From Erysipelotrichales bacterium (GTDB taxonomy: Bacteria; Bacillota_I; Bacilli_A; Erysipelotrichales; Erysipelotrichaceae): a stretch of DNA of 64,000 nt. This document shows positions 20,187-24,318 of the stretch, one piece after another. The DNA lies in assembly GCA_910576345.1 (NCBI GenBank), contig CAJTIT010000006.1, positions 1 to 64,000 on the forward strand, read 5' to 3'. A model generated the notes under the pieces. It was given only the letters and a program-made list of their open reading frames with translations, did no database searches and was not told where the DNA came from. The translations under genes were made by a program, and so were the position numbers. Every line of letters begins with the position of its first letter. Position 1 is the stretch's first letter.

Positions 20187-20266
20187 ATCCTACACCTCCT
20201 AATTTCAATTGCCAATAAATTATATCAAACATGATTGAAAAAAGCAATAATTACCTTGAAAAATTC

Positions 20267-20273
20267 CATACTA
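20267..20273 (+). promoter_or_regulatory. Forespore (SigG/SigF) -10 element of gpr
   Basis: CATACTA matches the SigG/SigF -10 consensus exactly. A weak GCAATA lies at -35 distance. The predicted start leaves a short leader ending in the GAGGTG ribosome site. Confidence 0.5.
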
Positions 20274-20294: not shown

Positions 20295-21170
20295 ATGAAA
20301 AAGCATTATCAAATACGAACAGATTTTGCGGATGAATCCGAAGGGTGTACATTAAACGATGAAACGTTTACGCATGAAAAAACAGTGCATGGCTCTATCG
20401 TCAGTAATTATATCAAAGTGCTAAAGGATGAAAATGCGTTGGGAAAAGAAATCGGTGATTATGTGACCATCCAATTTGAACAGCTGTTTGATCATGAAGA
20501 GCGCGAAGAAATCGTCAAAGTGGTATGTGAACAGATGCATCGTATGCTACGATCTATGAAATTGATGCCGAAAAAAGTTTTGGTTGTTGGTTTAGGCAAT
20601 CGCTTTATCACTTCGGATGCTTTGGGACCGGAAGTGGCGAATGATATTTTGGTCACGGCGCATTACTATGCGAATGAAGATAAGGAAATGCTGAAAGGAA
20701 CCGGCAATGTGGCAGTATTGCAGCCGGGGGTGATGGGACAGACAGGGCTTGAATCTTCCCATATCGTGAAAAGCATCGTGCAGCAGTTTCAGCCGGATCT
20801 TGTGATTGCCGTGGATGCATTGGCAACCAGAACCGTATCCAGAATCAACCGAGTCATTCAGATCAACAATACCGGCATTCAGCCAGGCAGCGGTGTTGGC
20901 AACCATCGAAACGCTATTAATGAGGCAGTGCTTGAAGTACCGGTTATTTCTATTGGTGTTGCAACCGTGACCAGTATTGGTGCGATTTTATCTGACCTTT
21001 TGCAGGAAACATCTGTCGCAATCGATCAGCTGATCGATGAAATACAAACTCCGCAAGATTTAGATTTGGTCGTCACACCAAAGTCTATGGATGATGAATT
21101 AAAACAACTCGTCTATTTGCTTTCACAAAGCATCAACCGTGTCATACACCCCAATTATTTAAAGCTTTAG
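20295..21170 (+). CDS. gpr: Germination protease GPR
   Basis: Aspartate protease of the forespore that degrades small acid-soluble spore proteins at germination. Recognised by YQIRTDFADES, VVGLGNRFITSDALGPEV, LQPGVMGQTGLES, VIAVDALATR and GIQPGSGVGNHR. The N terminus would be the propeptide removed on activation. Start 20295 has GAGGTG 6 bases upstream. Followed by a hairpin and spoIIP. It shows the organism belongs to an endospore-forming lineage. Confidence 0.95.
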   Translation: MKKHYQIRTDFADESEGCTLNDETFTHEKTVHGSIVSNYIKVLKDENALGKEIGDYVTIQFEQLFDHEEREEIVKVVCEQMHRMLRSMKLMPKKVLVVGLGNRFITSDALGPEVANDILVTAHYYANEDKEMLKGTGNVAVLQPGVMGQTGLESSHIVKSIVQQFQPDLVIAVDALATRTVSRINRVIQINNTGIQPGSGVGNHRNAINEAVLEVPVISIGVATVTSIGAILSDLLQETSVAIDQLIDEIQTPQDLDLVVTPKSMDDELKQLVYLLSQSINRVIHPNYLKL

Positions 21171-21172
21171 CA

Positions 21173-21220
21173 TAAAAACACTTCCAATTTCATAAAGTTA
21201 TGAAAGAGGGGGTGTTTTTA
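21173..21220 (+). promoter_or_regulatory. Hairpin overlapping gpr terminator and spoIIP ribosome site
   Basis: TAAAAACAC (21173-21181) pairs with GTGTTTTTA (21212-21220), TTCC (21182-21185) with GGGG (21208-21211), and TTTCAT (21188-21193) with ATGAAA (21200-21205). The A-tract/U-tract layout fits an intrinsic terminator for gpr, but its 3' arm is the spoIIP Shine-Dalgarno (GAGGGGGTG) and the stem ends one base before the TTG start. Confidence 0.7.
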
Positions 21221-22129
21221 TTGAAAACGACCAGTAAAATCTTTTTGAAATTGGCCTTGTTGATTTCTTTTTTATGTATCACACCTTTTTTTAGCGGAAT
21301 TTCCAATATGTTACAACAGAACGGCTTTTTGAATGCTTTTGTCTATCATCAGCGTACTATTGATGAAAGTGTTTCCATAAAGAATCAACTGAATCTGTTG
21401 TCTTATAATACGAATTTAACGATTGAGGATGATTTTCAGTTTCAGACGACACAAGATGTCGAACAAACAAACGATAAACAGGATGAAGTAAAACAAGAAC
21501 CAAAAACAAAGGAAAATGAGAAAACACCCGATCCGAAACCGGCAGAACCAAAAGACACCGGTAAAAAGGTCTATATTTACAATACACATCAAAATGAAGG
21601 TTATGCGGATGGAAAGACCGTTATGGATGCGGCCGCAATCTTAGGCAATGCGCTGGAAGAAAAAGGTGTGCATGTTGTATTGGAAACAGCTGATTTTCAG
21701 GCATATGCAAAAAATCAAGGATGGGATTATAATCAAAGTTATCAAGTTTCCTATAATTTTTTAAATGATGCTTTGGTCAATTATGGTGGTTTTGATCTGA
21801 TCATTGATTTTCATCGTGATGCGATCCCAAGAGAAGCAAGTTTCATTGAAATCGATGGGAAGACCTATGCCAAACTAATGCCGGTTGTCGGTGGTTTGGG
21901 TAAGAATGCGGAAGCAACAAAAAAAATCGCATCGACTTTATCTGACATAATGGACGCCAAATATCATGGTATTATGCGTTCAACCATGGTACGTGAAGCG
22001 TATTACAATCAAGAAGTTACAGATCATATGATCTTGATTGAATGTGGCGGTGATGTGAATACGTTTGAGGAAGTAAAAAATTCCATGGGAATATTGTCGG
22101 AAGGAATTTATGAGTATTTAACGAGGTGA
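21221..22129 (+). CDS. spoIIP: Stage II sporulation protein P
   Basis: Peptidoglycan amidase/endopeptidase of the DMP complex (SpoIID-SpoIIM-SpoIIP) that drives engulfment. An N-terminal membrane anchor is followed by a charged linker rich in E, K and P (about 75-115), then the catalytic domain with YIYNTHQNEGY (His and Glu ligands), FDLIIDFHRDAI, and MILIECGG. Start TTG 21221 is chosen because GAGGGGGTG stands 7 bases upstream; an ATG at 21200 lies inside the hairpin with no ribosome site. Confidence 0.94.
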   Translation: MKTTSKIFLKLALLISFLCITPFFSGISNMLQQNGFLNAFVYHQRTIDESVSIKNQLNLLSYNTNLTIEDDFQFQTTQDVEQTNDKQDEVKQEPKTKENEKTPDPKPAEPKDTGKKVYIYNTHQNEGYADGKTVMDAAAILGNALEEKGVHVVLETADFQAYAKNQGWDYNQSYQVSYNFLNDALVNYGGFDLIIDFHRDAIPREASFIEIDGKTYAKLMPVVGGLGKNAEATKKIASTLSDIMDAKYHGIMRSTMVREAYYNQEVTDHMILIECGGDVNTFEEVKNSMGILSEGIYEYLTR

Positions 22130-22134
22130 GCAAG

Positions 22135-22422
22135 ATGCGAAGATTTTTGGCGGATGCGCTTTTGGTATTGATGTTGGTGTCTTTGGTAACGTATATTACG
22201 GAACCAAAGGAAAAAAAAGAAATTGATCAAAAAATAGCGGAATTTGAAGATGATGTCGCAAGACATGATCGTGCACAACAGAAAGTAGAAGATACAAGAC
22301 TGAATGAAATTCATGAAAATGGTGCAGCCAGATTGGCACAATCAAGCAGTGAAGCCGTGATTGATTTGATGCATGGCAGTGTGGATGTATTGTCGCAGTT
22401 TTTCATGGGATTTCAAAGATAG
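22135..22422 (+). CDS. Small membrane-anchored protein in spoIIP operon
   Basis: 95 residues: one N-terminal helix (LADALLVLMLVSLVTYI), then a charged, probably coiled segment (EKKEIDQKIAEFEDDVARHDRAQQ broken here for length) and a hydrophobic end. Not recognised. It occupies the place of yqxA behind gpr-spoIIP in Bacillus, so a sporulation link is plausible from position only. SD GAGGTG overlaps the spoIIP stop. The mobile element begins about four bases after its stop codon. Confidence 0.7.
   Translation: MRRFLADALLVLMLVSLVTYITEPKEKKEIDQKIAEFEDDVARHDRAQQKVEDTRLNEIHENGAARLAQSSSEAVIDLMHGSVDVLSQFFMGFQR

Positions 22423-24318
<1,896 letters not shown>

Follow-up and report, generated by a model that had tools for sequence, protein, structure and literature searches.

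A terminator-type hairpin enclosing a candidate sigma-E promoter and the ribosome-binding site of spoIIP in Erysipelotrichaceae

Layout of the gpr–spoIIP junction

The window, a 64,000-nucleotide stretch of contig CAJTIT010000006.1 from an Erysipelotrichales bacterium, carries gpr followed by spoIIP, both identified with NCBIfam models and separated by about 50 bases (Table 1). Two other in-frame codons, ATG at 21200 and GTG at 21212, are candidates for the spoIIP start. TTG at 21221 was adopted because a Shine-Dalgarno (SD) sequence precedes it at normal spacing and because it matches the start position placed in relatives.

TABLE 1 Features at the gpr–spoIIP junction, in window positions
Feature	Position	Strand	Basis or remark
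Sigma-G-like gpr promoter	20245..20273	+	CAATA (20245-20249), N17, CATACTA (20267-20273); sequence motif
gpr, germination (SASP) protease	20295..21170	+	TIGR01441, 267.4 bits, 1.3e-79; ORF call
-35 element GCATA of the putative nested spoIIP promoter	21170..21174	+	G is the final base of the gpr stop codon
Terminator-type hairpin	21173..21220	+	Arms 21173-21185/21208-21220 and 21188-21194/21199-21205; loop 21195-21198
-10 element CATAAAGT of the putative nested spoIIP promoter	21191..21198	+	Upper stem and loop, N16 after the -35; like elements before spoIVA and spoIID
spoIIP Shine-Dalgarno sequence AGAGGGGG	21205..21212	+	Mostly inside the 3' arm of the hairpin
U-run, terminator tail and SD-to-start spacer	21215..21219	+	Run of at least four T
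spoIIP, engulfment peptidoglycan hydrolase	21221..22129	+	TTG start; TIGR02867, 139.6 bits (cut-off 123.15), 1.2e-40

The space between the two genes folds into a hairpin that begins 2 nt after the gpr stop codon: a lower stem of 13 pairs and an upper stem of 7, separated by a 2x2 internal loop and capped by a loop of four bases. Its minimum free energy is -21.8 kcal/mol (z -6.97), and none of 200 shuffled sequences was equally stable. Among 63 gene starts in the window, taken from ORFs called with a simple script of our own, the spoIIP start region had the lowest z (-7.39); the runner-up stood at -3.76, and the mean was -0.30 with a standard deviation of 1.50. The initial annotation had described a 48-base near-continuous stem: the 48-nt span is correct, but the internal loop interrupts the stem, which has 20 pairs. 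The stem does end, as had been claimed, at the base before the TTG codon, and in a longer folded segment the first U of that codon pairs too. The proposal that the SD and spacer form the 3' arm also agrees with the fold, in which five of the six bases scored as SD are paired and the U-run is the spacer. A simple terminator scanner did not list the hairpin, an omission that we attribute to the internal loop, and Rfam covariance models gave no match in positions 20900-21500 at E values up to 1.

Beyond spoIIP, a short gene of membrane-protein-like sequence (22135-22422) had no match in an NCBIfam search; by eye it resembles one in locus L002. Directly after the spoIIP operon, at 22489-24318, parts of a serine recombinase (Resolvase N-terminal; Recombinase and DUF4368) lie in two separate reading frames. 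In L002 a gene judged by eye to be methionyl-tRNA formyltransferase-like sits there instead, which suggests that the recombinase parts are those of a mobile element inserted after the operon.

Conservation of the hairpin and co-evolution of its arms

SpoIIP was present in 39 of the 272 family genomes searched, 38 of which were readable at the junction; genome G010 (L038) was omitted, its contig beginning just before spoIIP. The SD lies inside a nested hairpin in 20 of the 38 readable genomes, with z between -2.5 and -7.9; these genomes belong to 10 of the 17 genera, and the other 18 genomes lack the nested hairpin. Conservation of the stem in relatives, on which the initial annotation had made its proposal depend, is therefore seen in 20 genomes, and with arms that co-evolve. 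On the Gpr tree the trait requires at least four changes versus 13.0 with shuffled labels, a clustering that near copies aid. The sigma-G-like pattern [CGA][AC]ATA-N17/18-CATACT[AC] precedes gpr in 24 of 37 readable loci and in 17 of 19 readable hairpin loci, both being motif counts without a shuffle control. It is consistent with the presumed expression of gpr in the forespore; in the window, C replaces the first G of the -35 in the consensus that PMC3416734 tabulates (GNATA / CAWAMTA).

Four or more T in a row precede the start in 19 of the 20 hairpin loci. The 18 loci without the hairpin have no such run, and among 51 other genes of the window 3 do. This association argues that the hairpin is first of all an intrinsic terminator, and its designation as the gpr terminator fits a stable G+C-containing stem followed at once by the U-run. 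Start codons differ as well: TTG in 13, ATT in 1 and ATG in 6 of the hairpin loci versus ATG in 15, GTG in 2 and TTG in 1 of the loci without hairpin. Weak start codons are thus commoner in hairpin loci than in other spoIIP loci. In L031 (genome G020), which has no ATG, GTG or TTG at the position homologous to the spoIIP start, spoIIP apparently starts at ATT behind a good SD.

SD burial does not always come with a U-run. In L015 the terminator stands apart from the SD, which is buried by a second hairpin without U-run, and in L092 of the sister family f2 one hairpin without U-run buries both SD and -10 (z -3.8 and -3.3). These two cases favor burial in its own right. In f2 at large, a start could be called in 20 of 23 loci, and none of these 20 showed the U-tailed nested hairpin. 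Some f2 loci bury the SD without a U-run, L092 most clearly, and spoIIP starts are also structured in L064 (z -4.3), L066 (-2.8) and L085 (-3.1). None of 12 more distant spoIIP loci had a U-tailed nested hairpin, one of them (L121) being structured at the spoIIP start (z -3.3). The absence of the U-tailed nested hairpin from these f2 and distant loci implies that it is dispensable for sporulation. An automatic terminator check found no terminator in the 18 non-hairpin family loci, yet it missed that of L015, so that its zero is no evidence of absence. From one junction comparison, 8 of 35 loci were dropped for lack of a gpr match to the query used.

Two further arrangements were noticed. In f2 loci such as L052-L058, L086 and L092, the spoIIP -10 region is itself palindromic (CATACAATTAGTTGTATAG-like). 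In four loci of genus g57 (L021, L022, L024 and L028), a CATANNNT -10 lies just 13-15 nt before the spoIIP ATG with no clear SD, and their spoIIP mRNA would be nearly leaderless.

When all 20 hairpin loci were aligned with MAFFT, the promoter elements rather than the arms were brought into register, and we therefore exchanged the 5' and 3' parts between genera. Across 17 genera, with hairpins not selected for, native arms gave total energies of -266 to -288 kcal/mol versus permuted means of -178 to -187 kcal/mol; none of 5,000 permutations was as low in any of five draws (z -6.9 to -8.6). Seven of 19 rows had been dropped from this test because they lacked a gpr match to the query. The corresponding count was 0 of 10,000 when one locus per genus was permuted among the 10 hairpin genera, a test that took 17 of the 20 hairpin loci (L003, L007 and L027 being left out as near copies) and in which single foreign arms sometimes outdid the native arm, most often in L009 (6 of 16). 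Within the genus, 92.9% of cells were paired versus 51-67% when the arms were slid. Changes there are few: a double change was seen in 1 of 14 pairs, and 64 of 500 shuffles did as well. The case for co-evolution consequently rests on the comparison between genera, where the arms do co-evolve; the covariation that the initial annotation had proposed looking for in relatives is present at that level and thin within the genus.

A promoter motif inside the hairpin and access to the Shine-Dalgarno sequence

Of the 38 spoIIP upstream regions, 24 contain the motif YATR-N16-CATANNNT, against a mean of 0.06 and a maximum of 1 after shuffling; among 63 genes of the window, spoIIP alone has it. The spacing is N16 in 16 of the 20 hairpin loci and N15 or N17 in 2; L012 and L031 had no nested promoter by this spacing criterion. 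When the window's own genome was scanned for CATA-N16-CATANNNT with an SD behind it, six matches were returned versus none in a reversed control. They lie before spoIIP, spoIID (TIGR02870), spoIVA, a SpoIIIAH-like gene (a weak match to PF12685, E 5.4e-4, below the cut-off) and an aminotransferase-like gene, so named from its sequence, the sixth having no ORF. With a TATA-type -35 the same scan gave three matches versus four in the control, nothing above chance.

Similar elements mark other sporulation genes. Before spoIVA, [GAT][CT]ATA-N16-CATANNNT stands 32-33 nt from the start in all eight family loci; in six f2 loci it is absent from four and has N15 in two. Before spoIID, 5 of 12 family loci carry an N16 element 27-28 nt from the called start, one of them with GAATG as the -35, and 4 more carry an N15 element. 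A -35 containing ATA and a CATANNNT-like -10 at fixed spacing are thus common to spoIVA and spoIID, and a genus-wide motif scan returns SigK and YtvI too; sigma-K shares the sigma-E -10 (PMC3789822). Judged by its motif, the nested element is a conserved, putative sigma-E-type promoter of spoIIP. It would supply the transcript beginning inside the hairpin that the initial annotation had envisaged. On the assumption that transcription starts six bases after the -10, the start falls at about 21205, at the SD, and the promoter transcript would lack the 5' arm of the hairpin.

The computed cost of opening the SD was 9.3-19.5 kcal/mol in read-through RNA and 0.1-7.9 kcal/mol in RNA from the predicted start (20 of 20 hairpin loci). 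When every start was set at -16, the two costs differed by 5.8-16.6 kcal/mol in the hairpin loci, more in each of the 20 than in any of the 51 other window genes. All 51 were also exceeded by 4 of the 18 non-hairpin loci (L015, L018, L019 and L036); the mean difference was 4.3 in the 18 as a set versus 1.1 in the window genes. In the window, the probability that the SD is unpaired is only slightly higher in RNA from the predicted start (0.27) than in read-through RNA (0.17). Of 18 hairpin loci for which this probability was computed, 17 show an increase, and in L002 it falls from 0.17 to 0.13.

At spoIID, a hairpin takes in the -10 and has the SD in or beside its U-tailed 3' arm in 5 of the 12 loci examined (L096, L098, L100, L105 and L107, the SD of the last sitting in the upper stem); two of the 12 had no promoter by the criterion used. 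In this nested hairpin the sigma-E-type -10 occupies the loop region, the U-run is the spacer and the start is often TTG. Arm swaps were not clear-cut for spoIID, three of the sequences being alike. Such a hairpin was also noticed at the spoIID loci L111 (which, with L098, is the place at about 128250-128310 of contig C1 in the window's own genome), L152 and L162.

From the genus-wide motif scan, 30 loci among the matches listed were examined together with two from the own-genome scan, giving 24 distinct places with an ORF. A z of -3.2 or lower together with a U-run was found among these at seven places, four spoIIP and three spoIID, and the SpoIIIAH-like gene was intermediate (z -2.9, U-run present). 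The U-tailed nested hairpin was absent, among the matches listed, at SigK, YtvI, GDT1, P-type ATPase, VEG-like and other loci; several motif loci without it have a same-strand neighbor 31-81 nt away. Within the genus, the opening-cost difference was 8.4-14.0 kcal/mol at the four spoIIP and 15.4-16.9 kcal/mol at the three spoIID loci. The SD of spoIVA is buried more weakly (4.0-9.1 kcal/mol in six loci of genus g1, L070-L075, without U-run), and differences of 8.6 in one of three GDT1 loci, 7.0 in one of three SigK loci and 6.0 and 3.9 in two ATPase loci were obtained. These costs rule out that SD burial is exclusive to spoIIP and spoIID. Sigma-E-motif genes differ by degrees in how far the SD is buried in read-through RNA, and among those examined the strong, U-tailed form is confined to spoIIP and spoIID.

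A terminator that may double as a translational lock

The order of gpr and spoIIP in the window is that of Clostridioides difficile and Bacillus subtilis, for which PMC3789822 and PMC3416734 describe cotranscription of the two genes, sigma-F transcription common to both and a response of spoIIP to sigma-E too. This sharing makes forespore transcription of the window's junction plausible. In those species forespore transcription through gpr reaches spoIIP, as far as these sources go, whereas the junction in the window looks built against that; the host family appears to have built a stop there.

We consider it fairly probable that the gpr terminator doubles as a translational lock on transcripts that leak past it, with a sigma-E promoter nested inside. 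From the computed hairpin, its conservation, the co-evolution of its arms, the promoter motif and the energy difference, we infer a course of events in which sigma-E use, start site, termination, translational repression and biological purpose are all predictions. RNA from the gpr promoter would meet an intrinsic terminator made of a G-rich 3' arm and the U-run. Where polymerase passes the hairpin, the SD and spacer would be held in the 3' arm and the read-through RNA would be poorly translated. The mother-cell promoter, with its -35 at the 5' base of the hairpin and its -10 in the upper stem and loop, would yield a transcript that starts at the SD without the 5' arm, so that neither terminator nor lock could form. 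The mother-cell promoter, not transcription arriving through gpr in the forespore, would then be the source of SpoIIP; this would give the separation of gpr expression and SpoIIP synthesis that the initial annotation had raised as a possibility. In the host and about half of the relatives that keep spoIIP, only transcripts started at the nested promoter can probably make SpoIIP.

The most serious competitor, which we regard as less likely, is that the hairpin only ends gpr transcripts, its overlap with the start arising from short intergenic space (45-127 nt in the hairpin loci) and the burial of the SD being without consequence. The anatomy is that of an ordinary terminator, and the U-run that accompanies the hairpin in 19 of 20 loci is not always paired to an A-run. 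Being first of all a terminator, the hairpin may act as a lock in a second, minor layer, and efficient termination would leave the lock little to do. Yet a terminator-like hairpin was seen in 21 family junctions and covers the SD in 20; the exception, L015, covers it by the separate hairpin without U-run, and L092 buries it with no U-run at all. Space does not explain the overlap readily either: it persists in loci with 55-84 nt free before the hairpin, and the sigma-E-motif genes SigK, GDT1 and P-type ATPase, which have a same-strand neighbor 31-73 nt off, lack a U-tailed overlap.

Because the gpr stop codon lies so near the hairpin in the window, a ribosome reaching the end of gpr could disrupt the pairing of the 5' arm and free the SD, which would make SpoIIP depend on gpr translation. 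The cotranscription described in PMC3789822 and PMC3416734 would suit such coupling, and in 9 of the 20 loci 2-10 nt separate the stop from the hairpin. In the other 11 the distance is 19-84 nt, out of a terminating ribosome's reach; the U-run argues for termination, and spoIIP has a promoter motif of its own. We consider coupling improbable.

More improbable still is that the inverted repeat is a protein-binding site in DNA, the RNA fold being incidental. The repeat does extend across the promoter, beginning at the base of its -35 and running beyond the predicted start, and palindromic -10 regions occur in f2 too, but genera that differ in arm sequence preserve the pairing, which includes G-U pairs, and a U-run comes after the repeat. 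A search of 57 family genomes for SpoIIID, an obvious candidate binder, gave nothing above the cut-off; two weak hits were partial (E 1.9e-4 and 7.3e-4). A SpoIID match was present in 13 of these 57 genomes. Chance or base composition can hardly explain a hairpin with z of about -7 that was equaled in none of 200 shuffles, is the extreme of 63 window genes and has arms that outdid all 5,000 permutations.

The lock we favor follows a known logic. In long upstream transcripts of phage T4 gene e, the RNA folds over the ribosome site and about 100-fold less lysozyme is made, whereas late promoters just before that site give transcripts without the 5' strand, which are translated (PMC3014915). There, as at spoIIP, a cell-wall hydrolase is guarded. 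The promoters of gene e are phage late promoters, and the portion of that account available describes no terminator role; the spoIIP stem is U-tailed and would end the preceding gene. Two elements of the T4 arrangement have computed counterparts here: the SD is paired in upstream transcripts by opening cost in 20 of 20 hairpin loci, and a promoter whose transcript would lack the 5' arm is indicated by the motif in 24 of 38. For T4 I-TevI and SegB and Aeh1 MobE, PMC2988022 likewise reports that the ribosome site is sequestered on early and middle transcripts and that the position of the late promoter keeps the hairpin from forming in late RNA; these are homing endonucleases in another organism, with other sigma factors. 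The same logic has been proposed for the sporulation gene sigG of B. subtilis, where a large hairpin would form in read-through from PspoIIG. This case concerns another gene and other compartments, and no terminator role is described in the text available; the 5-pair hairpin at the sigG ribosome-binding site that was tested there (2-4-fold) is a separate structure inside the promoter transcript. A search of the open literature, outside which the original spoIIP paper falls, returned no description of the spoIIP layout. The lock logic is thus known from T4 gene e and I-TevI and proposed for sigG; what appears new is the merging of terminator, promoter and SD, and its use on engulfment hydrolases.

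A broader claim can be put forward only tentatively: SpoIIP and SpoIID, the two hydrolases of septal peptidoglycan in engulfment, may in this lineage share a dedicated terminator-promoter-SD lock that permits translation only from RNA of the mother-cell promoter, whatever arrives from upstream, and that is kept despite drift of the arms. If so, the weaker burial at genes such as spoIVA would represent insulation of this kind to a lesser degree, and the hazard guarded against would presumably be mistimed hydrolysis of the septal wall. At the gpr–spoIIP junction itself, four signals (terminator, promoter, SD and spacer) fit into about 50 bases with co-evolving arms, and they offer a testable answer, at the level of sequence, to the question of what could shield spoIIP from gpr transcription in the forespore.
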